17,671 bases of DNA from Cryomorphaceae bacterium (GTDB lineage Bacteria > Bacteroidota > Bacteroidia > Flavobacteriales > Schleiferiaceae), in the NCBI GenBank assembly GCA_949547975.1, contig CATITW010000255.1, forward strand, positions 1-17,671. The letters run 5' to 3'. Positions 1,371 through 16,684 of the stretch are shown here, piece after piece. The notes beneath the pieces were generated by a model, which did no database searches, had not been told where the DNA came from, and saw nothing but the letters and a program-made list of their open reading frames with translations. How positions within the stretch are numbered: the stretch's first letter is position 1; each line of letters starts with the position of its first letter. A program made the translations under genes and the position numbers.

Positions 1371-2684
1371 TTAAGGTTGATCCGAATGAATGGTTCCCAT
1401 GAGCTGAAGCAGCGCGATTTGGGCATTGGTAGCGCGGAACTGTGCGCTCATCTTGCCTTGTTCTGCGGCCATCCATGCGAGCTGACTTTGACGGAGCTCG
1501 AGGCTCGAGGCTTGGCCTAAGGCGTAGCGCTCCTGAAGTTTTTCGAAACGCTGGAAAGCGACAGTCGCATTCGCTGTTTCTAAGGTCGCTACTTGCAGGG
1601 CATTTTGGAACGTACGGTAGGCATTGCGAACGGTATTTTCCATGGTTTCTCGGACTTGGTCGAGGCGGCGCGTGGCCTTCATCGATTCTAGCGCTGCGTT
1701 TTGGCGCTGAGTAGCGCTCTGGAAACCTGAGAACAAGTTGTACTGAAGACTTACTCCTGCCGAGAAGCCCGTGACTTGTTGCGAGGACAAGAAACCTGCC
1801 TCGGCTTGGCTTTGGTTGAGGCCGTAGCTCGCTTGGGCACTTACCGATGGGAATAGGGTCGACTGTTGCAGCTTTTGCTGAAGTACGGCCGTTTCAGCGG
1901 AGATTTCTGCGAGGCGCACGGTGGCGTTCTGATTCATGACAGCGGTTAAAATCTCTTCCACGCTCGCTTTGATGGCGTCTTGGTCCAAAGTGGTGTTTTG
2001 GGCTACGGTAAAGGATCTAGAAGACAGGCCGGCGAAGGTCGCAAAGGTGTTGCGCGCAGCTTCGAGCTGGGTTTGTAGATCGAGCAGGCTGACTTTATCG
2101 CGGTTCAGATCGACTTCGGCGGCGAGTAGGTCGGTAGAATTGGACCCGCCTAGGTCGTTCGTTAATACGGCTTTGTCGTAGCGCTCCTGAGAGATGGCGA
2201 CACTTTTGGTGGAAACCGCGACCGATTCTTGCAAGAGCGCGATGGCCATGTATTGCGACCATACGCCCGCAACGGTGTTTTCTAAGGCCTGGCGGTAGCT
2301 GAGATCGGCGGCTTGTTGCGATTTTTTCAAAAGGCCATAGCTGCGCTGGATGCGGCCTCCGGCGAAGAGCACTTGGCTCACTCCGAGGGACGCGTTTTGG
2401 CTCAGGGATTGGGCTCCGGCGACATCTTGGGTTTGACCCGTTGCAAATTCGAGGTTGGAGTTTTGGTTGCTACCGTTCGCACCAGCAGAGGCGGTGACGG
2501 TTGGGAGCATTCCGGCGTTACCGTACGTGGCAGAATTGGCCGCTTGCTGGGCGGAGACATCAGCGATGTACAGGTCGTGATTGTGCTCGAGCGCACTGGT
2601 GAGGGCCTCGTCGAGGGTGACCAAGTTTTGTGCGCCCAGTGTTGCGCTGAGCACGAGGCCCAAAAGGGTGAAACACTTATTCAT
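1371..2684 (-). CDS. TolC family outer membrane efflux channel
   Basis: The outer membrane factor of a tripartite RND exporter. The protein of about 437 residues has a signal peptide (MNKCFTLLGLVLSATLGAQ), then two similar halves of long alpha-helical periplasmic segments and short beta-strand segments (for example LGVSQVLFAGGR and VSLQYNLFSGF), as in TolC/OprM. I chose the ATG at 2684, which overlaps the RND stop by 8 bases and puts the signal peptide at the very N terminus. An in-frame ATG at 2711 would add nine residues (MNKSKTTRK) before it and deepen the overlap. Helical, Gln/Ala-rich composition and length fit the family. It is the partner of the adjacent RND pump and fusion protein. 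Confidence 0.9.
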   Translation of the reverse strand: MNKCFTLLGLVLSATLGAQNLVTLDEALTSALEHNHDLYIADVSAQQAANSATYGNAGMLPTVTASAGANGSNQNSNLEFATGQTQDVAGAQSLSQNASLGVSQVLFAGGRIQRSYGLLKKSQQAADLSYRQALENTVAGVWSQYMAIALLQESVAVSTKSVAISQERYDKAVLTNDLGGSNSTDLLAAEVDLNRDKVSLLDLQTQLEAARNTFATFAGLSSRSFTVAQNTTLDQDAIKASVEEILTAVMNQNATVRLAEISAETAVLQQKLQQSTLFPSVSAQASYGLNQSQAEAGFLSSQQVTGFSAGVSLQYNLFSGFQSATQRQNAALESMKATRRLDQVRETMENTVRNAYRTFQNALQVATLETANATVAFQRFEKLQERYALGQASSLELRQSQLAWMAAEQGKMSAQFRATNAQIALLQLMGTIHSDQP

Positions 2685-5600
2685 CTTGCGCGTCGTTTTT
2701 GATTTGTTCAAAATATTGTTCGCTTTTCATCTCAATGATCGCGGGCTCTACCTCTTCACGAGTGGGTTTTTCGTTCGTCCAGATGTGGCGGATGAGTACA
2801 CGAGCGTCATTCACCAAAGCCATCATCGAAGGAAGTACTACGAGGGTGAGCATGGTGGCGAATCCGATCCCGTAGGCGATGGAAACGGCCATTGGAATGA
2901 GGAATTGGGCCTGGAAAGAGGTTTCAAAGATCAGCGGTGCAAGACCTGCAATGGTCGTAACTGTGGTCAAGAATATCGCACGGAACCTGCTGATACCCGC
3001 ATTGTAGATGGCTTCGTACACGCCCTGACCGGACTTCACATTGATGTTGTATTTACTGACCAATACCAGCGAGTCGTTCACGATGATCCCGATTAAAGCA
3101 ACTACACCGAGGAAACTTAAAATGGACATCGGCATGCCGTGCAGGTAGTGGCCCCATGCTACACCCGTTAAGCTGAGCGGGATGAGCAGCATGATGACGA
3201 TCGTTTGCACGAGCGATCGGAAGGTGAAGGTGATGGTCAGGATGATCAAAAAGAGGATCAGAGGCATCACGGTTTGTGAGCTGTCCTGGGTCTTCTGACT
3301 TTCCTTTTGCTGCCCTTCGTAACGCGCGTTTACCGATGGATATTTGGCGAAAATTTCGGGTAGGATGTCTGCTTTGATTTGCGACAAGAGGGCTGGCGCA
3401 GAGCCGTTTGGCGAGGATAAATCACTTTCCACTCGGAATTCACGCTGGCCGTCGAGGTGGTTGATATTGACCGTTCCACGTTCGATGGTATAATTGGCCA
3501 ATTCTCTCAACGGCACATTGCCCGAAGGCGTAGTGATCGGCAATTCTTCCAAGTCCCAAAGTTGTTTGCGGTCCTTTTCATTCAGGCGTACCCAAACTTT
3601 CACCTCGTCCTCGCCGCGCTGCAGACGTTGCACCTGGGCGCCGAAGAAGGTTTCACGCACTTGGCTCATCACAGCGCCAGGCGTCAAGCCTAAAAAGCGG
3701 GCTTTATCCGTCAGCTCTAAAGTCACCTCGCGGATCCCTTTCTGGTCGTTATCGACAACATCGGCAAGGGCTTCCATCCCTTTGAGTTTCGACTTGAGCA
3801 TTTCTTTAGCCGCCTTGAGCTCCACGAGATCATAACTCACGAGCGAGATGGAGATCGGCTTACCGAAGGCTTGCACACCGCCAAAACTCACGTTGTCCGC
3901 ACCAGGAATGTCTCCTGCAGCACTCCGAATGTCGTTTTGGATCAAATACGAAGGTGTTAGACGCGTCTCAGAATCCAGCAGAATCACGTTCAAACGAGCT
4001 TTAGAAGAGATCGGTCCGATGTTTTTCTGCACGGCGGTTACGACGTCTAAACTGTCGTCACGTTCCGATTTGTATTGCGTATTCACTTCCCAAACCTTTG
4101 CTTCGATGTGGTCGATCCATTTCTGGGTAACCGCCTCATTCGTTCCGGCGGGCATGTCGAGACTGATATTGAGGTTATCGCGTTCGATGAACGGGAAAAA
4201 TTGGGTACGAATCACACCACCACCGATCGCGCCGAAGGTGACTACCATGATGGCGATGAAGAAACTGATGGTGATGATCTTGTTGTTCAACGACCAATTC
4301 AAAAATGGCGCATACACCCGGTCGCGGAATTTGAACAAGGCTTTGGTCGCTGCGCTCTGAACCGGATTCATTTTGGCCTCACGGTCCAGCTTCGCATGCG
4401 ACAAGTGGGCCGGCAAAAACAGCAGACCCTCGATGAGCGAAACCGCTAAGGTCGCTACCACGATGAATGACATTTCCGAGAAGAAATCACCCGCACGTCC
4501 GTCCAAAAAGAAGAACGAAGAGAATGCAATAATGGTCGTCAAAACCGCACTCACTACCGAAGGAACCACTTCAACGGTTCCATCCAATGCCGCCTTTAAA
4601 AGGGGCTTGCCGCGCTCAAAATGCGAGTAAATGTTCTCGGCAATGACAATCCCGTCATCCACCAGAATCCCAATCACAACAATCATCCCGAACAGCGAGA
4701 TGACGTTTATGGTAATCCCAAAGAAGGTGGCTAACACAAACATCCCGGCAAAGGATACCGGAATTCCGATCGCTACCCAAAACGCAAGACGTAGGTTCAA
4801 AAACAGCGCTAAAAGAATGAGTACCAAGAAAAATCCAAGTAACCCGTTCTCAAACAAGAGTTCCTTACGTTGCTGAAGCGTCACCGAGAAATCAGTGATG
4901 ATGTCGAGCTGCATGTGGTCCGTGTTCGCATTGTAGGTATCGATGTACCCGCGCAGGTATTCACAAGTCTGCAGCAAATCTTCCTGGTCGGTATTATTCA
5001 CGGTGATTTCTACCGATGAAATGCCATTGTACGCCGCACGTGCGGGGCTGTCTTCCCAGCGGTTGCGTACCTCACCAAGGTCTTTTAAACGGATCGTTTG
5101 CCCGTTCGGACGGCTCTGAACCACCACATTTTGCAAATCTTGCGCTTCGTAGTTTTTATTGCGCGAACGGATGAGCATCTCCTCTTGGGTTCCTTTGATA
5201 GTACCCCCGGTGATGTCCAGGTTCGTGGTGCGAAGAGCCGTTGCGATCTGCGATAAGGTCAAATCGTACTTGCGGAGCGTACTTTTGTCTAAGGCAATCT
5301 CGATCTCCTCGGCGGGAAATCCACTCAGCAACACTTTGGAAATGCCGTCAGCGAGGCGAAGTTCCCCTTCGATGCGGCGTGCTTCGGCTTTTAAACTATG
5401 AAGATCCACGCCCTCTCCTGTCAGCGCCATACTCATGGCGAGGGTGAGGTTTTCGCGCTTGGCCACACGCACGGGCTCCAGCCCTGTCGGGAAGGAAGCG
5501 ACGTTTTCAACCGCATTTTTTACGTCCTCGAGCACCATGTTCGCGTCATAGCCTTTCAAGACATCGACGGTGATGGTCCCTCGATTTTCGTTCGAGGTGG

Positions 5601-5847
5601 AGGTGTACTGCTCTACCCCGGTAAGTCCTTTGAGGTTTTGCTCAATTTTATTAATCACCCCTTCTTCTATCTCCTCCGGAGAGGCCCCAGGATATACCGC
5701 GCTAATGGTAATGTTGCGCGATTCAACGAGCGGAAAAAAGGTCGTATTTAGATTATTGTAGCTGATGTAGCCAAACAGGAAGAACCCGATCAAGAGCGCG
5801 TCTACGCCTACGGGATATTTGATGAAAAACTCTATTAACTTCTTCAT
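2677..5847 (-). CDS. RND efflux transporter permease subunit (AcrB/HAE1-like)
   Basis: A 1056-residue inner-membrane proton-driven exporter with the usual RND layout: TM1 near residues 12-30, a first large periplasmic loop to about 335, six helices, a second periplasmic loop, and the last helices, ending near residue 1010. Transmembrane helix 4 carries the paired proton-relay aspartates Asp397-Asp398 in GILVDDGIVIAENIY. In the TM10 motif the AcrB lysine region is replaced by IIVNDSLVLV (Asn924-Asp925), a variant known in several RND branches. The substrate cannot be read from sequence: drug, bile-like or other amphiphile export is likely, and metal export is unlikely because the sequence is HAE1-like. 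The start is 4 bases after the fusion-protein stop (TAAGGATATG), with an AGGA ribosome-binding element. The stop overlaps the TolC start. Confidence 0.95.
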   Translation of the reverse strand: MKKLIEFFIKYPVGVDALLIGFFLFGYISYNNLNTTFFPLVESRNITISAVYPGASPEEIEEGVINKIEQNLKGLTGVEQYTSTSNENRGTITVDVLKGYDANMVLEDVKNAVENVASFPTGLEPVRVAKRENLTLAMSMALTGEGVDLHSLKAEARRIEGELRLADGISKVLLSGFPAEEIEIALDKSTLRKYDLTLSQIATALRTTNLDITGGTIKGTQEEMLIRSRNKNYEAQDLQNVVVQSRPNGQTIRLKDLGEVRNRWEDSPARAAYNGISSVEITVNNTDQEDLLQTCEYLRGYIDTYNANTDHMQLDIITDFSVTLQQRKELLFENGLLGFFLVLILLALFLNLRLAFWVAIGIPVSFAGMFVLATFFGITINVISLFGMIVVIGILVDDGIVIAENIYSHFERGKPLLKAALDGTVEVVPSVVSAVLTTIIAFSSFFFLDGRAGDFFSEMSFIVVATLAVSLIEGLLFLPAHLSHAKLDREAKMNPVQSAATKALFKFRDRVYAPFLNWSLNNKIITISFFIAIMVVTFGAIGGGVIRTQFFPFIERDNLNISLDMPAGTNEAVTQKWIDHIEAKVWEVNTQYKSERDDSLDVVTAVQKNIGPISSKARLNVILLDSETRLTPSYLIQNDIRSAAGDIPGADNVSFGGVQAFGKPISISLVSYDLVELKAAKEMLKSKLKGMEALADVVDNDQKGIREVTLELTDKARFLGLTPGAVMSQVRETFFGAQVQRLQRGEDEVKVWVRLNEKDRKQLWDLEELPITTPSGNVPLRELANYTIERGTVNINHLDGQREFRVESDLSSPNGSAPALLSQIKADILPEIFAKYPSVNARYEGQQKESQKTQDSSQTVMPLILFLIILTITFTFRSLVQTIVIMLLIPLSLTGVAWGHYLHGMPMSILSFLGVVALIGIIVNDSLVLVSKYNINVKSGQGVYEAIYNAGISRFRAIFLTTVTTIAGLAPLIFETSFQAQFLIPMAVSIAYGIGFATMLTLVVLPSMMALVNDARVLIRHIWTNEKPTREEVEPAIIEMKSEQYFEQIKNDAQDE

Positions 5848-5851
5848 ATCC

Positions 5852-6958
5852 TTATTTCACTGGAATAACAACAAGTCCTGAAGCCGCCTTCAACGTAGGC
5901 TCGTCTACAAGCACGGTCCCTGTAGGAACGCCCGTAATGATGATCTCGTTATCAAGCCACTCCACCACATTCACCACCTTGCGCTGCAAAACGCTATCGT
6001 TCTCTATCGTATATACATATTCGTTGTCGGAAACCATGTATGCCGGCACTTTGAGCGCATCATGCACTTCGACCCCTTGCACTTTACCGGTGAGGTACAT
6101 GCCTTCGCGAAGGTCTTTTCCACGCACCTGGATCACGATCGAAACGCTTTGGGTAGCATCGTCCACAACGGGTGCAATACGTACAATCTTTCCGGACCAA
6201 TTCCCCCTAATGTCCGGCGAATCGAACACCACCGTCTGGCCTACGCTGAGCTGATCTGCATACGCTAAGGTTACCGCTGTGGCCATCTCGTAGCTCGAAG
6301 GCGAAAGGAAGGTTCCAAGTGCGCGGCCGGGTGACACTAAATTTCCTGGCTTCACAAGTGCACTGGCAACCACCCCGTCAAACGGAGCCTTTACCGCGAA
6401 TTTTTCGAGACGTTCCTCGGCACTTTTTACTTGGTAATAGGCGCTGGACATGCCGCGGGCAATCAAAAACTTCTCTAGTTTACCGGTCGTTTCCGGCAAG
6501 GCTGGCAGAGCGGCCTCTAGGCTCAAACCTTCGTAGTAGCTTTCGAAGCGTTCGTAGTCCCCTGGGTAGTCCTGCGAAATGTCCGGCAGCACGCCGAGCA
6601 AGGCATTGATGAAGTTCCCTTTGAGGCTCATCACGTTTGCGAGCGCTTCGGCATCGTCAAGCTGAATCATCACTTCGCCCTTTTTAAAGGTAGTTCCCTC
6701 GAGGAAGCTGCGGTCACTTGTGCGGAAAATACCACTCACTTCAGCGAGTAGGTTCGCACGCTTCTGCGCTGTGAGCTTTCCGTACACCTTCAAAGGAACC
6801 GCGATGGTATCCGTTTTGGCCGCTACGACGCGAAGTTCCATTTTGCGCGTGTCCTCTTTGATTTCCTCTTTCTGAGACATGCTACCGAGTCGCTTCGACA
6901 CGAGGATTCCTACTACGAGGATGGCAATCGCAATGATTGCATTCTTTACAAATTTCAT
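5852..6958 (-). CDS. Efflux RND transporter periplasmic adaptor (membrane fusion protein)
   Basis: A 368-residue HlyD/AcrA-type adaptor linking the RND pump to the outer membrane channel. An uncleaved N-terminal membrane anchor is visible at residues 6-22, with no lipoprotein cysteine. Then come the first half of the lipoyl/barrel-sandwich domain (VYGKLTAQKRANLLAEVSG ... GEVMIQLD), a helical hairpin of about residues 103-185, and the second half (FAVKAPFDGVVASALVKPGN). A beta-barrel follows (MATAVTLAYADQLSVGQTVV) and then a membrane-proximal domain ending near the C terminus. The ATG overlaps the marR stop codon by 4 bases (ATGA), so it is translationally coupled to the regulator, and the RND gene follows after 4 bases. 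Confidence 0.93.
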   Translation of the reverse strand: MKFVKNAIIAIAILVVGILVSKRLGSMSQKEEIKEDTRKMELRVVAAKTDTIAVPLKVYGKLTAQKRANLLAEVSGIFRTSDRSFLEGTTFKKGEVMIQLDDAEALANVMSLKGNFINALLGVLPDISQDYPGDYERFESYYEGLSLEAALPALPETTGKLEKFLIARGMSSAYYQVKSAEERLEKFAVKAPFDGVVASALVKPGNLVSPGRALGTFLSPSSYEMATAVTLAYADQLSVGQTVVFDSPDIRGNWSGKIVRIAPVVDDATQSVSIVIQVRGKDLREGMYLTGKVQGVEVHDALKVPAYMVSDNEYVYTIENDSVLQRKVVNVVEWLDNEIIITGVPTGTVLVDEPTLKAASGLVVIPVK

Positions 6959-7413
6959 AATTCGCCTGTATTGAGATTGTTGTTGATTTTGTTCAATGCA
7001 TTTTTTACCAGATCCAGCTCCACGTCACTTAGTCCCTGTGTAGCGCCTTGGTGCACGCGCTGCGCACAAGCGGCAATCGCAGGAAGAAACGACTTTCCCT
7101 CTGCGGTCAGCTCTACCCTATTTTCCCGTCTATTCTGAGGATTCGGTGCGGTCTGTACCCAATTTTTGTCTTGGAATTCTTTCACCATGCGAGAAACGCG
7201 GTGACGGTCCATGCCCATGACTTCAGTGAGCTCGCTTTGATTCATCGGCTCCCCTTTTCGCATGACCATGCAACCTATAAACGGCAAATACGAGGTGTTG
7301 ATCTCGATCCCTTCTTCGGCTAAGGCACGCCCCATGGCTTCGCGCATCGCACGATGTACTTTGCCGGTAAGGAAGCCTAAGCTGTTGGAAAGGTTATTTG
7401 GGTCGGGTCCCAT
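6955..7413 (-). CDS. MarR family transcriptional regulator
   Basis: A 152-residue winged-helix regulator, first gene of the efflux operon. The DNA-binding segment spans about residues 57-110: helix-turn-helix MNQSELTEVMGMDRHRVSRM, followed by the wing with the family pattern PNPQNRRENRVELTAEG. Flanking N- and C-terminal helices would form the dimer interface. MarR proteins usually repress their own operon and release DNA on binding an aromatic or amphiphilic ligand or after cysteine oxidation. Two cysteines are present (Cys48 and Cys116), so redox sensing is possible but not shown. The perfect inverted repeat just upstream of the start is the natural candidate operator. The stop overlaps the next start by 4 bases. 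Confidence 0.92.
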   Translation of the reverse strand: MGPDPNNLSNSLGFLTGKVHRAMREAMGRALAEEGIEINTSYLPFIGCMVMRKGEPMNQSELTEVMGMDRHRVSRMVKEFQDKNWVQTAPNPQNRRENRVELTAEGKSFLPAIAACAQRVHQGATQGLSDVELDLVKNALNKINNNLNTGEL

Positions 7414-7519: not shown

Positions 7520-10366
7520 TTAGTGTGCCTCGAGCCAGCTCTGACCGGTACCGACCTCAGCAATCATCGGGATTTCCAGCTCCACTGCGGCCTCCATGTG
7601 CTTCACAACCAGTGCTTTCAACTCCTCCAGCTCATCTTTGAACGCATCAAAGACCAATTCATCATGCACCTGCAACAGCATTTTCGACTTCATTCCCGCT
7701 TCGCGCATCGCCTTATCTACCTGAATCATAGCGAGCTTGATCACGTCGGCAGCAGAACCTTGGATCGGCGCATTCACCGCATTGCGCTCACTGTGTCCAC
7801 GAACCACTGCATTGCGAGACTCGATGTCCTTCAAATAGCGGCGACGGCCCGTAATGGTTTCTACATACCCATGTTCACGGGCAAAACTGACTTGCTCATC
7901 CATATATGCCTTGATGCCCGGATACGTTCTGAAATATCCGTCGATCGCTGCTTTAGCCTCTTTACGACTCATGTCCGTTTGCTGGCTCAACCCGAAGGCA
8001 CTCACCCCGTACACGATTCCAAAATTCACCGTTTTCGCATTCGAACGCTGCTCGCGAGTCACCTCTTCTAACGGCACTTCAAACACCTTCGCAGCAGTGG
8101 CTTTATGGATGTCCTCTCCTGCTTTAAACGCAGCAATCATCGCCTCGTCCTTCGCTAAGGCTGCAATAACGCGAAGTTCAATCTGGCTGTAATCCGCTGC
8201 GAGCAGAATATGATCCTCGTTCGCTGGAACAAACATGCCGCGGACTTTTCGCCCGTTCTCAGTACGGATCGGAATGTTTTGCAGGTTCGGATTGGTTGAA
8301 CTCAAGCGACCCGTGGCAGCCACCGTTTGGTTGAAGCTGGTATGAATACGACCCGTCTTCCCGTGGACCAATTCCGGCAACGCATCCACATAAGTGCTCT
8401 TGAGCTTTTTCAACTCTCTAAAGGTCAATATCTTGTCCACGATCGGGTGTACAGATCGCAAGTCTTCTAAAATATTTTCACTGGTCGCATATTGCCCGGT
8501 CTTCGTCTTTTTCGGCTTTTCAGAAAGCTTCAAATCGTCAAACAACACCTCGCCCAGCTGACGTGGTGAGCCGACATTAAACGGACGACCCGCGAGCTCA
8601 ATGATCTCTTCCTCAAGCGTGACGATCAATCCGCCCAATTCTTTACTGTAGCTGTTCAACGCATCCACGTCCACGCGAATCCCTTCACGCTCCATGCGTG
8701 CAAGCACCGGAACGAGCGGCATTTCGATGGTACGGAACACGCTATCTACCTTCGTTTCTTGGAGCATCGGCTCAAAAAGCTGCTTCAGCTGGAAGGTAAT
8801 GTCTGCATCTTCACACGCGTAGTCCACGACCTCAGCGGCCGGAATATCGCGCATGTTTTTCTGGTTCTTTCCTTTTTTCCCAAGGAGCGTCTCGATGGAA
8901 ATGGTTTCATAATTCAGGTACGTCTCGGCGAGAATATCCATCCCGTGGCGCATGTCGGGTTGAATGAGGTAATGTGCGATCATGGTATCGAAAATTGGCC
9001 CAGAGACCTCCACGTCGTAATTCATCAGCACGCTTAGGTCGTACTTTATGTTCTGACCAATTTTTTCCACGCCTTCAGACGTCCAAAATGGCGCGAACGC
9101 ATCCACCATTTCTTGTGCCTTGTCGCGCTGCTCGGGCACCGCCACATAGTACGCCTTGCCTTTTTCATAAGCAAAACTGATCCCCACGAGCTCCGCATCT
9201 AATACGCTGAGCGAGGTGGTTTCGGTATCAAACGCAACGCTGGATTGCGCAGCCAAAAGTGCCGCCAATTCACGCGCCTCATCCACATGTTCGATCAGCT
9301 GGTACATGTGCAGCTCCGTGCTCACCGTCTTGCGCGAGCTCACTGCCGGCGCATCATCACCTGCGTCTGAAGCCGGCGCTCCTCCACCGAACAAATCCAT
9401 CTGGTCGTTCGAAGTGAGGTTGACTTTCTTCGTCGGTTTCTTTGGAGCATCACTTTGCGCAGCATCACCACCGCGGGTCAAACCTAAACGGCGACCTAGC
9501 GTACGGAATTCCAATTCCTCGAAAATATCCAAGAGCGCTTCCGCATTCCAATCGCTGCGCGTTAACGTATCCGATTCGAGCTCCACGGGAACTTCGGTGA
9601 TGATCCGTGCCAATTTCTTCGACAGTATCCCCTGCTCGGCATTGTCCCGAATCTTCTCTCCTAATTTTCCTTTAATCTCATCGGCGTGCGCCAGCGTTTC
9701 TTCCAAACTGCCGTACTGCGCCAAAAGCTTGGTGGCGGTTTTCGCACCCACGCCCGGAAGGCCCGGGATATTGTCCACCGCATCGCCCATCATACCGAGG
9801 TAATCCACGACCTGATCGACGTTCGCGAGCCCAAATTTCTCACACACCTCTTCCGTGCCCCAAACTTCGGGTGGGTTGCCACCACGGCCGGGACGGAACA
9901 TGAAGATGTGGTCCGAAACTAATTGGCCAAAATCCTTATCAGGGGTCATCATGTAGGTCGTAAACCCTTCTTTCTCCGCCTTCTTCGCTAGCGTCCCGAT
10001 CACGTCATCCGCCTCGTAACCGCTCACTCCAATCGCAGGAATGTCAAACGCTTCCAGGATTTTATGAATGTACGGCACCGCCAATTTTATCGCCTCCGGC
10101 GTGGCATCTCTATTCGCCTTGTACTCCGGAAAGATCTCATGACGCTCGGTCGGCTCCGGCAAATCGAAACAAACGGCGATGTGCGTCGGATTTTCCTTCG
10201 ACAACAGATCTAACAGCGCACTCGTGAACCCGTAAATAGCGCTCGTGTCCAGCCCGGAAGAAGTGATGCGCGGATTTTTCGCAAAGGCGAAATAGGCTCT
10301 GAAAATGAGCGCATAAGCATCTAAAAGAAAGAGTTTTTTGTCCGTATCTGGCGTTTGTTGACCCAT
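7520..10366 (-). CDS. polA: DNA polymerase I
   Basis: A complete 948-residue family A polymerase for Okazaki-fragment processing and repair. The 5'-nuclease domain covers about residues 10-300, with acidic-site motifs FDLPEPTERHEIFPEYKANR, YEADD, TPDKD and GDAVDNIPG. The proofreading 3'-5' exonuclease covers about 355-545 and keeps all DEDDy positions (Asp380 and Glu382 in FDTET, Asp in QNIKYDL, Tyr and Asp in YACEDAD). The polymerase domain has motif A (AADYSQIELR), motif B (RSNAKTVNFGIVYG, Phe at the sugar-discriminating site) and motif C (LQVHDELVFD). The linker between nuclease and exonuclease is Lys/Gly/Ala rich and contains QMDLF at 322-326, resembling a sliding-clamp-binding motif. The ATG at 10366 is the sensible start. 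The gene lies divergent to the phosphoesterase and is not part of the efflux operon: 106 bases separate its stop from marR. Confidence 0.97.
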   Translation of the reverse strand: MGQQTPDTDKKLFLLDAYALIFRAYFAFAKNPRITSSGLDTSAIYGFTSALLDLLSKENPTHIAVCFDLPEPTERHEIFPEYKANRDATPEAIKLAVPYIHKILEAFDIPAIGVSGYEADDVIGTLAKKAEKEGFTTYMMTPDKDFGQLVSDHIFMFRPGRGGNPPEVWGTEEVCEKFGLANVDQVVDYLGMMGDAVDNIPGLPGVGAKTATKLLAQYGSLEETLAHADEIKGKLGEKIRDNAEQGILSKKLARIITEVPVELESDTLTRSDWNAEALLDIFEELEFRTLGRRLGLTRGGDAAQSDAPKKPTKKVNLTSNDQMDLFGGGAPASDAGDDAPAVSSRKTVSTELHMYQLIEHVDEARELAALLAAQSSVAFDTETTSLSVLDAELVGISFAYEKGKAYYVAVPEQRDKAQEMVDAFAPFWTSEGVEKIGQNIKYDLSVLMNYDVEVSGPIFDTMIAHYLIQPDMRHGMDILAETYLNYETISIETLLGKKGKNQKNMRDIPAAEVVDYACEDADITFQLKQLFEPMLQETKVDSVFRTIEMPLVPVLARMEREGIRVDVDALNSYSKELGGLIVTLEEEIIELAGRPFNVGSPRQLGEVLFDDLKLSEKPKKTKTGQYATSENILEDLRSVHPIVDKILTFRELKKLKSTYVDALPELVHGKTGRIHTSFNQTVAATGRLSSTNPNLQNIPIRTENGRKVRGMFVPANEDHILLAADYSQIELRVIAALAKDEAMIAAFKAGEDIHKATAAKVFEVPLEEVTREQRSNAKTVNFGIVYGVSAFGLSQQTDMSRKEAKAAIDGYFRTYPGIKAYMDEQVSFAREHGYVETITGRRRYLKDIESRNAVVRGHSERNAVNAPIQGSAADVIKLAMIQVDKAMREAGMKSKMLLQVHDELVFDAFKDELEELKALVVKHMEAAVELEIPMIAEVGTGQSWLEAH

Positions 10367-10384
10367 GGGTGAAGGAGGTTGTGT

Positions 10385-10423
10385 ATGCGTAGAAAAATAA
10401 GAGGAGGTAAGTTAGCTACTTAA
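10385..10423 (+). CDS. Possible 12-residue leader peptide ORF with a strong Shine-Dalgarno site
   Basis: ATG at 10385 opens a 12-codon frame (MRRKIRGGKLAT, stop TAA at 10421). It is preceded by AAGGAGGT, a full-consensus ribosome-binding site placed about 6 bases before the ATG. A second GAGGAGGT lies inside the frame at 10401-10408. Bacteroidota seldom use Shine-Dalgarno sites, and the real genes of this window mostly lack them, so the match stands out. It lies on the strand of the phosphoesterase, 76 bases before that gene's likely ATG. It may equally be a chance purine run complementary to the pyrimidine-rich polA leader. Confidence 0.2.
   Translation: MRRKIRGGKLAT
10392..10399 (-). promoter_or_regulatory. 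Weak candidate -7 element for polA
   Basis: On the minus strand this reads TATTTTTC, matching TAnnTTTG at all but the last base, and lies 25 bases upstream of the polA ATG. No convincing -33 TTG stands at the expected 17-23 base spacing (only TTAA about 20 bases away), so the call is tentative. Confidence 0.2.
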
Positions 10424-10499
10424 GTCGAAATACCGAGTTTTGTACCATAAAACAATCCCCTATTCGATGGCGTTGTTATTGAGCATACAATCTGACATT

Positions 10500-11723
10500 A
10501 TGATTTTTAGAATCCTGTTCACCCTAGGATTTGTCTTAGCCATAGACGCCTACGCCTACCAAGCCTTTAAAACCGCCTTCAAAAGTCCCGCCACCCCTTG
10601 GATTTACTGGGGAGTAACCGTTGCTTATGTGGTGTTCAGTGTCGCTATCAGCGTAATGATGAATACCGGAAAAGTCGACTATACATACCTCGGCCTGCTG
10701 ATGGGAACGACCGTTTTATTGTCGGTACCGAAACTCGTCGCGATCCTCCCCCTCTTGCTCGAAGATGTGGTCCGTTTGGGCCAATTCATTTTTCGCGCCA
10801 CCACCACCCAGCCGACCCTCATGCCAGAGCGCCGCAGGTTCATCTCACAAATCGCGCTTGGTCTAGCAGCCATCCCCTTCATCGGTATTATCGACGGAAT
10901 CTGGAAAGGCCGCTACCGCTACCGCGTTTTAAGCCACACGTTGGAGTTTGACGATCTGCCCGAAGCCTTCGACGGATTCACCATCGCCCAGATCTCGGAT
11001 GTGCACAGCGGTTCTTTTGACAACAAAGAAAAAGTGCAATACGGCGTCGACATGGTGACCCAGCTGGGCGCCGATGCCATCATGTTCACTGGTGACCTGG
11101 TCAACAACACTGCCGACGAAGCAGAGCCTTGGATCGAAACCTTCAAGCGCCTCTCCGCAACCTCTGGTGTGTTCTCTATTTTAGGAAACCACGGCTATGG
11201 CGACTACTGGAAATTCCCTACCGCCGAAGCGAAAGTGCAGAATCTGGACCGCCTGAAGGCCATTCACGGCGAGATGGGCATGGACTTGCTCTTGAACGAA
11301 AGCCGCTATTTTGAGCGCGACGGACAGCGCTTGTATTTGGCGGGAGTTGAGAATTGGGGTTTACCGCCCTTCCCGCAATACGGCGATCTCAATGAAGCCT
11401 TAGCAGGAATTCCAGAAGATGCGTTCACCATATTGCTAAGCCACGATCCATCACACTTTGATGCTGAAGTAAAACAGCACGGCAAAAAAGTACACCTGAC
11501 TTTAAGCGGTCATACGCATGGAATGCAGTTTGGGATTGAGATTCCGGGCTGGATCAAATGGTCGCCCGTGAAGTTCAAATACCCGAAGTGGGCCGGATTG
11601 TATCCGGAGGACGATGGACAAATTCTTCACGTGAACCGTGGGTTTGGATTCCTCGCATTCCCAGGACGTGTGGGCATGTGGCCGGAGATTACGCACATTA
11701 CATTGAAAAAGAAATTGGCGTAG
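10500..11723 (+). CDS. Membrane-anchored metallophosphoesterase
   Basis: A calcineurin-like (YkuE-type) binuclear metal phosphoesterase of 407 residues from the ATG at 10500. In-frame starts at 10467 (ATG) and 10440 (TTG) would add 11 or 20 residues. About three N-terminal helices (residues 3-22, 34-53, 62-86) are followed by RRRFISQIALGLAAIPF (111-127), resembling a twin-arginine motif plus hydrophobic segment. The catalytic domain then begins: QISDVHSG (Asp167, His169), TGDLVNN (Asp199), LGNHG (Asn230, His231), a later LLSHDP and GHTHGMQFG. These are the metal ligands of the family. The catalytic face is probably extracytoplasmic by topology. Phosphodiesters or UDP-sugar lipids are family substrates, but none can be chosen here. 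It ends 9 bases from the convergent crtY-blh fusion. Confidence 0.88.
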   Translation: MIFRILFTLGFVLAIDAYAYQAFKTAFKSPATPWIYWGVTVAYVVFSVAISVMMNTGKVDYTYLGLLMGTTVLLSVPKLVAILPLLLEDVVRLGQFIFRATTTQPTLMPERRRFISQIALGLAAIPFIGIIDGIWKGRYRYRVLSHTLEFDDLPEAFDGFTIAQISDVHSGSFDNKEKVQYGVDMVTQLGADAIMFTGDLVNNTADEAEPWIETFKRLSATSGVFSILGNHGYGDYWKFPTAEAKVQNLDRLKAIHGEMGMDLLLNESRYFERDGQRLYLAGVENWGLPPFPQYGDLNEALAGIPEDAFTILLSHDPSHFDAEVKQHGKKVHLTLSGHTHGMQFGIEIPGWIKWSPVKFKYPKWAGLYPEDDGQILHVNRGFGFLAFPGRVGMWPEITHITLKKKLA

Positions 11724-11732
11724 AAAAATCCG

Positions 11733-13700
11733 CTAGTGCGTCCTGTTCCGATAGAACGACGACATATAATACACGTGCGGTAGACTCAGTGCGCTCAGGA
11801 AGATCATGCTTTTTCCGAAAACCGCCGTTGCAGACGCTAACGTGCCGACATACAGCAGGGCACCAAACATCAGTAAGGCACCAAAGGTAAACGGTGCGGC
11901 ACGTTTCCACATCACCGCAGTGGTCCAGCGCTGACTCCGCTTTAAATGCCGCCAGCCCACGACGCTATGGCGCAGCACAAAGTAGACACCAAAGGCAATC
12001 ACAAGCGGTAATCCCGTAGTTGCGATCAGCGTCACCACTGTAAGCAGCCACTTCCAAGAACCTTTTGCCAGGGCAAGTAGTAGTCCGATAACGCTCAAGA
12101 CTACAGTCGCCGTCTGGGTCTGCTCCAGCGACGCTTCAAAGGCCGAAACACCCATCGTACCAAGCACGTTTACGACGCTGTCCCAATGCGGCACAAGCAA
12201 TATGCCCATCAGAACCGTGCCCCAAAGCAAGGCCAAGCCAGGCGTAGGGATACGCCATTCCTCGAGGTCGGTTTGGCCAAAATGCCAAGCGCTGTAGCCC
12301 AAAAAGCCGATGAGGGCCAGTGCAGGCATCCACCACCAGAGCAAGAGCGCTAGGGCCATGATCCCGACATATTTCAAAATGAATACCGGCAACGCCTCTT
12401 TTCGCTGTTCGACGTAGGCATCTAAGGCGCCGTGTGGGATGCCCACAACAAAGAGCACAACGGCTAAAACTCCGCCGATCACGGGGAGGGTGAGTTGGGG
12501 TTGGAATTGGTTTAAAATCAATGCTATGAGGGACAGCGAGAACGGCATAAAACGCCAAGCGTGCTTGACCCCTTTAAAACGGACATAGCGCCCGACGCTC
12601 CACAAAAACTTGGGAACGGGCAGGCGTGCGAACATTCGAACTTCCCAACCTATCGTCGAGCGTTCTTCTAAAAATCGGAAAATCTCTTCAGTGCGCTCGT
12701 TCTTGAGCAACGTATTAAAGATGGTCGCACCCCAGTCGGGTCTGAACTTTAAGATGATAAGCAATAGGGTATCGTACCACTGAAAACGACGGCTCATAGC
12801 CGAGGGACTAGAAACAATCTTCTCTGGCTGGGCATATTGAGAAGCTATAGTTTCGGCATGTTCGTACATGGCTTTGAATCCATACCCGGTCGTCGCTTTT
12901 ACTTTGCCTGCACGGGCACCTGTGGGCGTAACACCACCCTGCTGATCCACCTGAATGTCCTGCGACATAGGGATCACGCCGAATTCTTTATCCTCGACAA
13001 CGTAGGTATCGACCTGCTGAGCACAATATGCTGCCAACACATTCGCTGCACGGGAATGGTCTATTTTTTCTGTTGAAAACCGGGTCAATTCAACCATCGC
13101 CTCCCGCTCACTCGTTGGCAGCACATACACAAACTGCGTACCCCCGTCTTGAGGAACTGAGAAATCCATTAACGTAAATGTCGACGGATCAAACGCTGGC
13201 GTTGAGCTCTTTATTTTCCACCCAACAAAACTTTGAAGGACCGTCTCGCCCATCTCCTCCTTAAAAGCAGGGGGTCTACTGTCGTATACCCGGTCCACCG
13301 CATAGGTCTGATCATTTGCCGCTAGTACACATCCGTTATCGGACGCGTTTACCTCTGAAACAGCCGATGGAACAAACTCAACGTTCGGGTGATTTGCGAC
13401 GAGTGATTTTCCTCGATCGTAGATCGCCGAAGATTCAATCATGTAATAACGCATGCCCTGCATGTTGTCCACGCGTTCCGCAGTGCGAACGTTCCCCCAA
13501 GAGGTCAATATGAACTCGCTCAGATCACCAACCATGGTAGATTTTGGGTGGGCCCAGAAGCAATACGTCTTGTCGTTGTGCTCCTTAGTGGATGCATCGA
13601 ATACCAAAACACGGATACGGTCAAGCACTCCTCCACGCTCTAAGGCATGAAGTAGTAATGTGTTTGACGCGCCGAATCCGACAAGTGCGATGGTTTCCAA
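11733..13700 (-). CDS. Fused lycopene beta-cyclase / beta-carotene 15,15'-dioxygenase (CrtY-Blh)
   Basis: One uninterrupted 655-residue frame joins two enzymes of retinal synthesis. Residues 1 to about 375 are a CrtY-type lycopene beta-cyclase: FAD-binding N terminus (VGFGASN), VYDSRPP at 138-144, QSFVGW at 156-161, LMDF...QDGGTQFVYVLP at 177-195, and TGYGF at 271-275. Residues about 385-650 are a Brp/Blh membrane dioxygenase with several helices and iron-ligand candidates His423 (GIPHGALDAY), His473 (SAWHFGQTD), His578 and His585 (RHSVVGWRH) and His642 (LPHVYY). The protein would turn lycopene into beta-carotene and cleave it to retinal at the membrane. Translation must start at TTG 13700: an in-frame stop lies directly before it and the next Met (55) is inside the cyclase. 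It is divergent from the rhodopsin gene. Both domain calls rest on motifs, and activity is untested. Confidence 0.9.
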   Translation of the reverse strand: METIALVGFGASNTLLLHALERGGVLDRIRVLVFDASTKEHNDKTYCFWAHPKSTMVGDLSEFILTSWGNVRTAERVDNMQGMRYYMIESSAIYDRGKSLVANHPNVEFVPSAVSEVNASDNGCVLAANDQTYAVDRVYDSRPPAFKEEMGETVLQSFVGWKIKSSTPAFDPSTFTLMDFSVPQDGGTQFVYVLPTSEREAMVELTRFSTEKIDHSRAANVLAAYCAQQVDTYVVEDKEFGVIPMSQDIQVDQQGGVTPTGARAGKVKATTGYGFKAMYEHAETIASQYAQPEKIVSSPSAMSRRFQWYDTLLLIILKFRPDWGATIFNTLLKNERTEEIFRFLEERSTIGWEVRMFARLPVPKFLWSVGRYVRFKGVKHAWRFMPFSLSLIALILNQFQPQLTLPVIGGVLAVVLFVVGIPHGALDAYVEQRKEALPVFILKYVGIMALALLLWWWMPALALIGFLGYSAWHFGQTDLEEWRIPTPGLALLWGTVLMGILLVPHWDSVVNVLGTMGVSAFEASLEQTQTATVVLSVIGLLLALAKGSWKWLLTVVTLIATTGLPLVIAFGVYFVLRHSVVGWRHLKRSQRWTTAVMWKRAAPFTFGALLMFGALLYVGTLASATAVFGKSMIFLSALSLPHVYYMSSFYRNRTH

Positions 13701-13737
13701 TTAAACGTATGCTTTACCACTTATTAATAACCCTGAC

Positions 13738-13760
13738 AACAATTGGGTTTTAAAATTGTT
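13738..13760. promoter_or_regulatory. Inverted repeat in the crtY-blh / rhodopsin intergenic region
   Basis: The arms AACAATT (13738-13744) and AATTGTT (13754-13760) are perfect complements around a 9-base spacer, 38 bases upstream of the fusion gene's TTG and about 70 bases before the opsin promoter. The 201-base region holds no gene and is strongly A/T rich. The repeat could be an operator shared by the two divergent genes, or a weak hairpin. The arms are A/T rich, so chance is a real alternative. Confidence 0.35.
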
Positions 13761-13808
13761 TTATGGCCCTTATCAATCTTTTTTTACTGACCCTCAAGAC
13801 CATGAGTA

Positions 13809-13840
13809 TTTGTACTTTGTTTAAACTTTTTTTATATTTC
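13809..13840 (+). promoter_or_regulatory. Bacteroidota-type promoter for the proteorhodopsin gene
   Basis: TTTG at 13809-13812 and TATATTTC at 13833-13840 are 20 bases apart. This fits the known Bacteroidota sigma-factor pattern, a -33 TTG/TTTG, 17-23 bases, then TAnnTTTG, with one mismatch at the last base. Transcription would start near 13846, giving a leader of about 55 bases. The leader just before the ATG (TTTAAAAATTAGTACC) is A-rich without Shine-Dalgarno, the usual strong initiation context in this phylum. Confidence 0.6.
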
Positions 13841-13855
13841 ATGAACAAAATCAAA

Positions 13856-13875
13856 ACCCCGCAGTTATAAGGGGT
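13856..13875 (+). promoter_or_regulatory. Hairpin in the rhodopsin mRNA leader
   Basis: ACCCC (13856-13860) pairs with GGGGT (13871-13875) across a 10-base loop. The stem can be lengthened by AAA (13853-13855) with TTT (13878-13880) after a 2-base bulge. It would lie near the 5' end of the opsin transcript, followed by an unstructured A-rich stretch to the ATG. There is no U-run, so it is not a terminator. mRNA stabilisation is a plausible but unproven role. Confidence 0.4.
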
Positions 13876-13901
13876 AGTTTAACCATTTAAAAATTAGTAC
13901 C

Positions 13902-14687
13902 ATGTCTTTAACAACAACACTTGCTAGCGTGACGGCTGGCGCATCGGCAGTAGATCTTACTGCCTACACAGACATTACCACAATCACGTCGTTTACCTTC
14001 TTCGTAGGGTGTATGGCAATGATGGCGGCTTCTGTCTTTTTCTTCTTCGAAATGTGGAACGTAGACAAAAAGTGGCGCACCTCTTTATTGGTGAGCGGTT
14101 TGATTACGTTTATCGCATTCGTACACTACTACTACATGAGAAGCTACCACTTCGAAACAGGTGACTCTCCAACGTTCTTCCGTTATGTGGATTGGACGCT
14201 GACTGTGCCATTGATGTGTGTGGAGTTCTATTTGATTACTAAAAAAGCAGGAGCGAAAATGAGCTTGCTTTGGAAACTCATCGCAGCTTCTGTAATCATG
14301 CTTGTAACAGGTTACTTCGGTGAGACAATCTACCGCGAGCAGTCTGTTATGTGGGGTGTTCTTTCAGGTGCAGCTTACTTCTACATTGTTTTCTTGGTAT
14401 GGAAAGGCGAAGTGGCTCAATTGGCCCAAAACGCTGGTGGTGCCGTAGCAAAAGCAGTAAAGGTTTTATTCTGGTTCGTTCTTGTAGGATGGGCAATCTA
14501 CCCACTAGGTTACATCCTAGGAACTCCAGGAGGATTATTTGGTATCCAATTAGTATCTGATCCTGAAGCAGCTTCTGCCTACATGGACGTGGTATACAAC
14601 ATCGGTGATGCAGTGAATAAAATCGGATTTGGTCTTGTGATCTACTCACTAGCCGTAAGTAGCTCTGACGAGAAAGCTGCCGCTTAA
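13902..14687 (+). CDS. Proteorhodopsin, green-type light-driven proton pump
   Basis: A 261-residue seven-helix microbial rhodopsin of the inner membrane that binds retinal and pumps protons outward in light. In helix C, RYVDWTLTVPLMCVEFYLI gives Arg94, Asp97 (proton acceptor), Thr101 and Glu108 (proton donor), the DTE pattern of proteorhodopsin pumps. It is not the NDQ pattern of sodium pumps or the chloride-pump pattern. Met105 at the colour-tuning site predicts green absorption. His75, the partner of the acceptor, is in FVHYYYMR. Lys240 in DAVNKIGFG is the Schiff-base lysine. By eye, Gly152 in helix E aligns with Trp138 of bacteriorhodopsin and the antenna-window glycine of xanthorhodopsin. 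The N terminus before helix A is Thr/Ala rich. Codons look more A/T-ending than in neighbours, fitting high expression. The chromophore enzyme gene is divergent next door. Confidence 0.97.
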   Translation: MSLTTTLASVTAGASAVDLTAYTDITTITSFTFFVGCMAMMAASVFFFFEMWNVDKKWRTSLLVSGLITFIAFVHYYYMRSYHFETGDSPTFFRYVDWTLTVPLMCVEFYLITKKAGAKMSLLWKLIAASVIMLVTGYFGETIYREQSVMWGVLSGAAYFYIVFLVWKGEVAQLAQNAGGAVAKAVKVLFWFVLVGWAIYPLGYILGTPGGLFGIQLVSDPEAASAYMDVVYNIGDAVNKIGFGLVIYSLAVSSSDEKAAA

Positions 14688-14709
14688 TCTATTTCTTTAG
14701 TGTTTTATT

Positions 14710-14747
14710 AGCCCCGTTTCTTAAGTCTTAAGAAGCGGGGCTTTTTT
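14710..14747 (+). terminator. Rho-independent terminator after the rhodopsin gene
   Basis: A 15-pair stem: AGCCCCG, a T-G wobble, then TTCTTAA on the left arm (14710-14724), loop GTC, and the complementary right arm ending CGGGGCT at 14742. A run of six T (14742-14747) overlaps the last stem base. It begins 23 bases after the opsin stop and insulates the monocistronic opsin mRNA from the peptidase gene downstream. Confidence 0.93.
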
Positions 14748-14794
14748 ATTTGTGGTTCTTGCTACCTTCGCTTGAAGACACCAGCAACCTACTT

Positions 14795-16684
14795 ATGAAA
14801 AGGCACCTCCTCCACTTCGTACTTGCCGCGTTACCGCTGTTTAGCGCAGCTCAAAAAACCGGCATTCACTCGTATTCCATCGACCTTACTACTGTCGTGG
14901 AAGACCGCGTCAAAGTCACCGTAGATGCCAGTGCCGCTGGACTCGGAGATACTAAAAACAGCTACTACGCCTACCATTTCCCCGCAACCATCCCCGGCAC
15001 CTATGCCACGTTAGACTACGGCCGATTCATTCGCGACTTTAAAGCGTTCGATCCTGCAGGCAATGCAATCAAGGTGAAGAAATCGGGCAACACCTACCGC
15101 ATTTACGGTAAACCTTCCCGCTTGGAATATTGGGCGGACGACACCTTCGACGCGAAAATTCGCAAAAACAAGGTTTTTGAACCTGCCGGAACAAACAACC
15201 AGGAACGCCGCAACTTCTTGCTGAACCACGCGGGCTACTTTGGCTTTTTTGAAGGCCTCGAAGAATTGCCTGTATCTCTTGAAATTTTAAAAAGCCCCAC
15301 CCTCTATGGCATCAGCGCCATGGAGAGCTACAGCTACGGCAACACCCAAGTCTTTAACGCGCGAAACTACCATCACTTCCTGGACTGCCCGGTGATGGTC
15401 AGCAAGCCTGATACGACCAGCTTCAAGCTCGGCGGCGCGAAGGTGACCATTAGCGTATTCACCGAAAACGGTCGTGCACTTTCCGACGACATCTATGGGG
15501 CTGTTGAAACCAGTATGCAGGCCATCGAACAATTTCTCGACGGCAACCTCCCTGTAGACAACTATGCTTTTATTTTCTACATCAAAGACTACACGGAATT
15601 TGAGCCGCTGTTTAGTGGGCGTGAGATCAAAATTGGTACCATTATCAAGGCCCTTCGTCAACTCTCTGGCAAGGGATTTGGCGCGCTCGAACACGGGAAC
15701 AGTTCAGTGTATTACCTCCCCGATTTCGGAGGAACCTCCGTTTTGGACGATATGGCGGATGTGTGTATCCATGAATTCTTTCACATCTTGACTCCGCTGG
15801 GGTTGCACAGCGAAGAAATTGGCGACTTTAACTACATCGAACCCGAGATGAGCCAGCACCTGTGGTTGTATGAAGGGATCACAGAATACTTTGCCGGCAT
15901 TAGCCAAGTCAAAGGCGGCGTCATCACTAAGGACGAATATGTGCGCAGTTTGTTGCGTCAGAAATTGGTCACGAGCGAGAAATTTCCAAATCATAAAATG
16001 TCGTTTACACAGATGAGCGAAAATGTGCTGGAGAAGCCGTACAAAAAGCAATACTTACAGGTCTACCAGCGCGGTGCTGTGCTCGGAGCACTCCTAGACA
16101 TCCGTATCATGGAGCTTACCGGTGGGAAGATGAACTTACGAGACGTCATCCTCGCCTTGCGCGACCGCTATGGCGCCGAAGCCAGTTTTAAAGACGAAGA
16201 AATCATCGCCGAATTCGTCGCACTCGTGCATCCTGACCTTCAACGCTTCTTTGATCGCTACATCACGGGAAAAGAAGATTTACCCCTCCAAGAATACTTG
16301 GCCAAAGTGGGCATCGACTACGACCGTTCTTATGTTGGGCCCATGGTTGTGGATCCTTTGGCGGATAACGACATCAAAACCAAACGTATGCGTGGGACCA
16401 ACCAAATGCTCGTCAAAAAAGTAGGTAAGAACGAGTTCCTCGGACTGCAAGCTGGAGACAAGGTTGCTCTAACGAATGCCATTACCCAAACTCCGTATGG
16501 AGGACTGCAAGAAGGCACCGTGGTTCCGGTCGAGGTAGTGCGCGGCGATAAAGAACTTGAAATCCCCTACACGGTACGTTATGAAAAAGGCGCTAAGGGG
16601 CATTTCATTCGTTTCCAACGCAACCCCGAAGCGAAGGCACAAACGCTCCAAGACTTGTGGCTCGGCGAAGGGCCATTGCGCTAA
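14795..16684 (+). CDS. M61 family metallopeptidase (glycyl aminopeptidase-like), secreted
   Basis: A 629-residue exported zinc peptidase. The ATG at 14795 gives a clear signal peptide (MKRHLLHFVLAALPLFSAAQ); the frame opens earlier at a TTG (14750) inside the terminator tail, which is unlikely to be used. An N-terminal M61 beta domain is followed by the thermolysin-like catalytic domain: GALEHGNSSVYYLP, then the zinc motif HEFFH (His326, Glu327, His330) and the third-ligand region WLYEGITEYFAG (Glu360). The C-terminal part, about 535-600 (LGLQAGDKVALTNAI...), looks like a degenerate PDZ domain, as often found in the family. It would act in the periplasm or outside on peptides. TACCTTCG at 14763-14770 resembles a -7 box, but no -33 element is properly placed. 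It has no obvious tie to phototrophy. Confidence 0.9.
   Translation: MKRHLLHFVLAALPLFSAAQKTGIHSYSIDLTTVVEDRVKVTVDASAAGLGDTKNSYYAYHFPATIPGTYATLDYGRFIRDFKAFDPAGNAIKVKKSGNTYRIYGKPSRLEYWADDTFDAKIRKNKVFEPAGTNNQERRNFLLNHAGYFGFFEGLEELPVSLEILKSPTLYGISAMESYSYGNTQVFNARNYHHFLDCPVMVSKPDTTSFKLGGAKVTISVFTENGRALSDDIYGAVETSMQAIEQFLDGNLPVDNYAFIFYIKDYTEFEPLFSGREIKIGTIIKALRQLSGKGFGALEHGNSSVYYLPDFGGTSVLDDMADVCIHEFFHILTPLGLHSEEIGDFNYIEPEMSQHLWLYEGITEYFAGISQVKGGVITKDEYVRSLLRQKLVTSEKFPNHKMSFTQMSENVLEKPYKKQYLQVYQRGAVLGALLDIRIMELTGGKMNLRDVILALRDRYGAEASFKDEEIIAEFVALVHPDLQRFFDRYITGKEDLPLQEYLAKVGIDYDRSYVGPMVVDPLADNDIKTKRMRGTNQMLVKKVGKNEFLGLQAGDKVALTNAITQTPYGGLQEGTVVPVEVVRGDKELEIPYTVRYEKGAKGHFIRFQRNPEAKAQTLQDLWLGEGPLR

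Follow-up and report, generated by a model that had tools for sequence, protein, structure and literature searches.

Can a single bacterial protein carry out both of the reactions that turn lycopene into retinal, and if so, what would a cell gain from having them joined? The question is raised by the window, that is, the whole stretch of 17,671 nucleotides analysed here (from an aquatic-type Cryomorphaceae bacterium, contig CATITW010000255.1), in which the initial annotation had claimed one unbroken frame of 655 residues with CrtY in its first half and Blh in its second. The frame was confirmed and lies on the minus strand, a point on which the annotation was silent; a plus-strand reading of 11733-13700 is ruled out by many stops throughout. 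Since a TAA stands in frame directly 5′ of the TTG start at 13700, no earlier start is possible. The gene and its parts are the following.

11733..13700, minus strand: CrtY-Blh fusion gene, 655 codons open, from the TTG at 13700 to the stop codon at 11733-11735
12615..13691, minus strand: CrtY-type lycopene cyclase domain, residues 4-362 (PF05834, 139.1 bits)
12459..12614, minus strand: junction region, residues 363-414, with the old gene boundary at 377/378 (about 12569/12570) from alignment to the CrtY and Blh of locus L163
11760..12458, minus strand: Blh-type beta-carotene 15,15′-dioxygenase domain, residues 415-647 (PF15461, TIGR03753, H423, H473, H578, H642)

A conserved fusion of two known enzymes

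PF05834 and PF15461 were the only Pfam families matched by the window protein. The score of its N-terminal half against PF05834 (Lycopene_cycl) lies far above the gathering cut-off of 23.4 bits, and positions 2-372 of the 380 in the profile are covered; against the NCBIfam cyclase models TIGR01789 and TIGR01790 the protein reaches 53.5 and 87.6 bits under curated cut-offs of 215.2 and 209.5, and by cut-off it is outside both families. The CrtY pattern is present in full, with a GxG near the start (G8, G10), which we take to be FAD-binding, followed by F-x-Y, E-x-T-R with the conserved glutamate E204, and a late GY, all presumably functional stretches of CrtY-type cyclases. G10, F190, Y192, E204, T206, R207 and G272 are invariant in all 82 aligned fusions, as are D43 and R142 among others; G8 occurs in 80 (two gaps) and Y273 in 81. 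Structure comparison gave a flavoprotein fold with a geranylgeranyl reductase-like protein as the top match, in rows (Foldseek, VIA-align) that span residues 1-371 only, and a PDB sequence search at E 0.01 returned no relative of the window protein. On these features, the CrtY half is predicted to turn lycopene into beta-carotene.

The C-terminal half passes the cut-offs of both PF15461 (BCD, 104.9 bits against 28) and TIGR03753 (Brp/Blh, 118.8 against 95.25). The Blh alignment held 136 rows, 85 fused and 51 separate (one separate protein being in twice), and covered 50 of the 53 unfused genomes described below; G354, G370 and G072 were left out, the Blh of G072 having an internal stop. H423, D427, H473 and H578 are found in all 136 rows and H642 in 134, with two gaps, and the conserved histidines are presumably iron-binding. 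The Blh half would thus be expected to cleave beta-carotene to retinal. Loss of key residues among relatives, which the annotation had named as evidence that would speak against it, was not what we saw: the residues are kept in both halves, and both are under purifying selection (median dN/dS 0.11 for CrtY and 0.14 for Blh, from the 27 of 63 pairs that remained after 36 saturated at silent sites had been dropped). Two extra histidines are a mark of the fused clade, namely H505, found in 85/85 fused Blh domains versus 4/21 linked and 6/30 other separate rows, and H585, found in 79/85 fused domains and outside the five commonest residues in both separate groups.

An assembly chimera or a frameshift artefact could also produce a frame of this kind, but we found no supporting point for such an explanation. 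A search of 5.8 billion proteins, in which the 7997 candidates with the largest number of shared words were scored, yielded 352 homologues; among the matches listed, all 120 have both domains in precomputed assignments, so that other two-domain proteins, which the annotation had proposed to look for, do exist. Among these 120 is a protein identical to that of the window, and full-length relatives with 84% and 54% identity are likewise among the matches listed. In a scan of species genomes, both domains share one frame at each of the best 80 loci of at least 383 relatives, the fusion at one of these loci (L018) being cut by the contig end. Together with the supported fused clade on both the CrtY and the Blh tree (see below), these relatives and loci refute an artefact for the fusion family at the level of sequence comparison, leaving it a practically nil chance. 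The fusion of two known enzymes is real and conserved.

Phage carriage was considered separately and rejected, as 50,697 phage records gave no match and no relative is encoded by any of the 59 pattern matches in viral contigs.

Origin of the fusion

The junction had been placed at about residues 375-385 and described as clean, which holds: there is neither stop nor frameshift, and the boundary aligned to L163 falls within that interval. The window protein can be aligned end to end, through the junction, with the two unfused proteins of L163 at the cost of a one-residue gap, so that the fusion resembles a whole CrtY joined to a whole Blh with no added linker. The region of residues 365-412 is 42-55 residues long across 82 fusions, and the junction is modelled as helices with block means of pLDDT of at least 88.

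The fused rows fall into a single clade, both on the CrtY tree (bootstrap 99 and SH-aLRT 97 in a careful tree of 60 rows, 99 in a quick tree of 94 rows) and on the Blh tree (98 in a quick tree of 96 rows), with the window row inside it in each case. The quick trees took 45 of the 85 fused rows and the careful CrtY tree 25. Because roots were not inferred, a single gain of the fusion is the simplest and most likely reading of these trees rather than a proof. On the CrtY tree, the sister of the fused clade is the unfused L163 of genome G172 (support 97 in the quick tree, 100/97 in the careful one), where rhodopsin (PF01036, 138.4 bits), crtY and blh follow one another in this order and the TGA of crtY overlaps the likely ATG of blh by one base (TGATG). 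The Blh tree puts L163 on a long branch whose position is unsure and does not resolve it as sister, which weakens an L163-like origin without contradicting it. Separate pairs of crtY and blh on the same strand are generally tight: with start codons guessed as the nearest ATG, 20 of 21 overlap or lie at most about 61 bases apart, one pair being ~590 bases apart, and the coupling is therefore likely to be older than the fusion. The fusion has very probably arisen once, through read-through of a tightly coupled crtY-blh pair and with no linker added.

Distribution in Bacteroidota

The frequency of the fused form was estimated from 395 Bacteroidota genomes drawn from across the phylum, with the fused genome G001 as centre. 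Blh was found over cut-off in 58 of them, five of which have the fusion (G001, G067, G230, G246, G344). The fusion is thus a minority form in Bacteroidota as judged from these 58 Blh-bearing genomes, and the annotation was right that crtY and blh are normally separate, as they are in the remaining 53 and in Dokdonia (PMC3587595, in the sections available to us). Among the 53, crtY stands before blh on the same strand in 21 (hereafter linked) and elsewhere in 18 (unlinked, meaning not beside blh; in G398 and G153 it is ~7 and ~16 kb off), while in 14 no CrtY exceeds 100 bits, the limit for calling one strong; flavoprotein matches below it, some of them slightly above the Pfam cut-off, were left uncounted.

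The best 80 fusion loci carry labels of Flavobacteriales, Chitinophagaceae and other Bacteroidota drafts. A few have labels such as Candidatus Parcubacteria, Chitinophaga pinensis, Sphingobacterium thalpophilum or Chryseobacterium gleum (L060, L027, L042, L078), which may reflect binning or naming errors; labels like Parcubacteria for L060 were given no weight.

One further candidate was rejected. A 958-codon frame of G257 (G257:C1; L097, L177) holds a divergent Blh (Pfam, 203 bits), but it was left uncounted as a fusion because it has no CrtY match within and the fusion-derived Blh profile finds only two weak pieces. Weak PF18916-like cyclase matches adjoin the frame, which may be no CrtY fusion at all but a long frame that is open by chance.

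Rhodopsin and other neighbours

Retinal is the light-catching part of rhodopsin, and in the window a rhodopsin gene stands beside the fusion. The following features surround the latter.

13701..13901, no strand: divergent intergenic region between fusion and rhodopsin, 201 bases, delimited from the sequence
13902..14687, plus strand: rhodopsin gene, 261 aa, divergent from the fusion (PF01036, 148.8 bits)
10440..11723, plus strand: metallophosphoesterase gene, convergent flank (PF00149; its cluster in 20/81 loci)
14750..16684, plus strand: M61-type peptidase gene, flank (PF17899 and PF05299; its cluster in 13/81 loci)

The rhodopsin has the stretch RYVDWTLTVPLMCVEF, which we take to fit the DTE proton-pump pattern. 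A rhodopsin gene is upstream and divergent in 15 of the 17 loci L001-L017, L004 and L010 ending before it would be reached. With the window included, rhodopsin adjoins the fusion in 47 of 81 loci; none was seen beside it in 34, some of which are cut short. All 30 fused genomes studied below have a rhodopsin gene. The metallophosphoesterase and the M61 peptidase are shared synteny outside the retinal module.

In the window, PolA (named by resemblance), metallophosphoesterase, fusion, rhodopsin and M61 peptidase follow one another over 7520-16684, an order kept in several of the nearest relatives (L001-L003, L005-L009), which are labelled Schleiferiaceae, Cryomorphaceae, Flavobacteriales or Bacteroidetes. 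On the minus strand of 1371-7413, outer-membrane-factor-like, RND-like and membrane-fusion-like frames follow one another downstream of a MarR-like regulator, a putative efflux operon by resemblance only.

Second cyclases and a probable retinal branch

The carotenoid genes were compared in 30 fused genomes, 26 of them picked from the 80 loci (mostly those with long flanks) and four from the draw. Phytoene/squalene synthase (PSY/SQS) is present in 29, G015 being the exception. The fusion is the sole strong CrtY in 29, G022 having a separate one too, and a CrtYcd-type cyclase, of a family unrelated to CrtY, was found in 23. A second lycopene cyclase, usually CrtYcd, occurs in 24/30 fused, 10/21 linked (eight through a second CrtY and two through CrtYcd) and 0/18 unlinked genomes, at most four candidates per genome having been scored for a second CrtY. 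With kinship ignored, the Fisher p values are 4e-8 for fused versus unlinked, 6e-4 for linked versus unlinked and 0.03 for fused versus linked. The fused count leans on the picked genomes, because a second cyclase is present in 23/26 of these versus 1/4 from the draw (2/5 with the centre G001). CruF-type genes were found in 24/30 fused, 3/21 linked and 4/18 unlinked genomes. Eight of the 21 linked pairs (L106, L117, L151, L156, L158, L159, L160, L164) come with two CrtY genes, the one beside blh being apparently a copy reserved for retinal without fusion.

In G001, CrtYcd adjoins a CrtZ-like frame, and CrtD (NF042421, 615 bits) and CruF (PF04240) are nearby; in G025 a CrtI/D-type desaturase (NF058655, 656 bits, cut-off 640), crtB, cruF, a CrtZ-like frame (PF04116) and crtYcd follow in this order; and in G020 CrtD (603 bits) stands with CruF, CrtYcd being on a separate contig. 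The unfused sister genome G172 has CrtYcd and CruF as well. CrtYcd with CruF has been tied to monocyclic carotenoids, and CrtYcd, CruF and CrtD or CrtI/D-type genes, the kinds that stand together in G001 and G025, are listed for flexixanthin (PMC10784355, in the portion available). The CrtZ of G001 is likely to be the frame beside CrtYcd, which has no Pfam match and was recognised by histidine pattern and place only. Matches to 'FA_hydroxylase' of 183-189 aa in Schleiferiaceae-type genomes were rejected as CrtZ, the two tested (G001, G008) being Lipid_desat.

We propose that the N-terminal CrtY half would cyclise lycopene to beta-carotene, that the C-terminal Blh half would cut this into two retinals for the neighbouring rhodopsin, and that pigment carotenoids would come from the second, unrelated CrtYcd or, in one genome, from a second CrtY. 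The excess of second cyclases in fused over unlinked genomes supports such a dedicated retinal branch, and we see in the fusion the probable retinal arm of a carotenoid pathway that is split; the simplest reading is one cyclase per product, with CrtYcd serving pigment and CrtY-Blh serving retinal. We consider it quite probable that one membrane protein serves the last two steps to retinal, as a dedicated branch in most carriers examined and with a single origin by read-through.

A second cyclase could also mean that the Blh half alone is active, with CrtY as a relic or scaffold and beta-carotene supplied by the other enzyme. The CrtYcd found in 23 of the 30 fused genomes and the scores of the CrtY half under the NCBIfam cut-offs would agree with this. 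We nevertheless regard it as very unlikely, given the CrtY residues that do not vary across 82 fusions, the purifying selection on this half, the six of the 30 fused genomes in which no other cyclase was found, and the link of CrtYcd with CruF to monocyclic carotenoids in what was available of PMC10784355.

The six fused genomes without a second cyclase of the searched families are G005, G009, G015, G230, G246 and G344. Since G015 lacks a phytoene synthase match too, gaps in draft genomes may contribute. In G230, G246 and G344 there are CrtZ-like frames (151-154 codons) but no second cyclase of these families, so beta-carotene may escape there; either the fusion would have to release beta-carotene in these genomes or an unrecognised cyclase would have to exist. 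The same three (L172, L170, L169) have neither CrtYcd nor CruF and show several SQS/PSY matches, far stronger than in other fused genomes, suggesting a different carotenoid or terpenoid set-up. The claim that the fusion commits lycopene to retinal therefore stands in part: a dedicated branch gains indirect support from the second-cyclase counts, whereas strict commitment is at odds with these three genomes.

How far the dedication goes can be read in two ways. It could be that the fusion couples expression only, giving equal amounts and a common membrane address, while its beta-carotene joins the cell pool and can be used by CrtZ and other enzymes. G230, G246 and G344, where a CrtZ-like frame coexists with the fusion as sole strong CrtY and no PF18916 cyclase was found, would fit this, as would the overlap or close spacing already seen in 20 of the 21 separate pairs. 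However, a second cyclase in 24 of the 30 fused genomes would be needless were beta-carotene freely shared, and the 18 genomes whose crtY is unlinked get by on one cyclase of the searched families. We rate coupling of expression alone as possible, if somewhat doubtful. The other possibility is a private pool, in which CrtYcd would lead to monocyclic xanthophylls and CrtY, locked to Blh, to rhodopsin; beta-carotene would be handed on inside one membrane protein, as the annotation had inferred, and stay hidden from CrtZ, and the supplies of retinal and pigment could be set independently. The split would then predate the fusion, because the unfused sister G172 already has CrtYcd and CruF. This version, too, we put forward tentatively, as falling short of an even chance. 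If the dedicated branch is true, it would answer how a rhodopsin bacterium can make retinal and pigment carotenoids without one synthesis competing against the other. The idea is testable, since nature offers one protein that would lead from lycopene to retinal and, as a control, its unfused sister.

Comparison with known systems

In the open-licence PMC literature, which mostly leaves subscription papers outside, our searches brought up no bacterial protein described as a CrtY-Blh fusion. None is named in the parts available of PMC5877348, PMC5459899, PMC9418006, PMC2889829, PMC13043013, PMC10784355, PMC10675870, PMC4831467, PMC5864233, PMC8386455 and PMC3587595. Public databases already contain such fusion proteins, named after one half only ('lycopene beta-cyclase' or 'Brp/Blh family'), and surveys that count crtY and blh through separate HMMs (PMC8386455, as far as its available text goes) would tally one gene under both names in fused lineages. 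The initial annotation's term 'undescribed' can therefore be kept for the literature searched, but not without noting that the protein is common in databases and that another kind of cyclase-Blh fusion occurs in a protist (PMC10016063, from excerpts). The parts are known, and the CrtY-Blh arrangement has no earlier bacterial description in the literature searched.

That protist protein, CrtI-CrtB-CrtYcd-Blh of Thecamonas trahens, is described in the same excerpts and resembles the window protein in that a C-terminal Blh comes after a cyclase in the same chain; it differs in coming from a eukaryote, in its CrtYc/d-type cyclase and in two further domains. Having no PF18916 match, the window protein does not belong with a T. 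trahens-like CrtYcd-Blh. The CrtYcd and Blh of T. trahens were placed near halobacterial genes (PMC10016063, same excerpts). Carotenoid parts are joined in one protein also in the thraustochytrid CrtIBY (PMC10016063) and in the fungal synthase-cyclase and fusion-type CrtYcd (both cited in PMC2889829), which, in the passages available, join other steps and have no Blh.

Closer in function are crtY and blh of proteorhodopsin bacteria such as Dokdonia (PMC3587595) and RCA roseobacters (PMC10675870), two genes whose separate proteins, according to the available sections, serve the same two steps. In Dokdonia blh adjoins the rhodopsin gene, and in the RCA operon the genes are linked to rhodopsin in the order Blh-crtY, the reverse of the domain order of the fusion. 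The closest likeness is to the adjacent crtY-blh pairs of 21 Bacteroidota genomes, L163 among them, which share the order of the fusion and have close or overlapping ends but keep a stop codon between two proteins; such a pair is likely to be the precursor form of the fusion.
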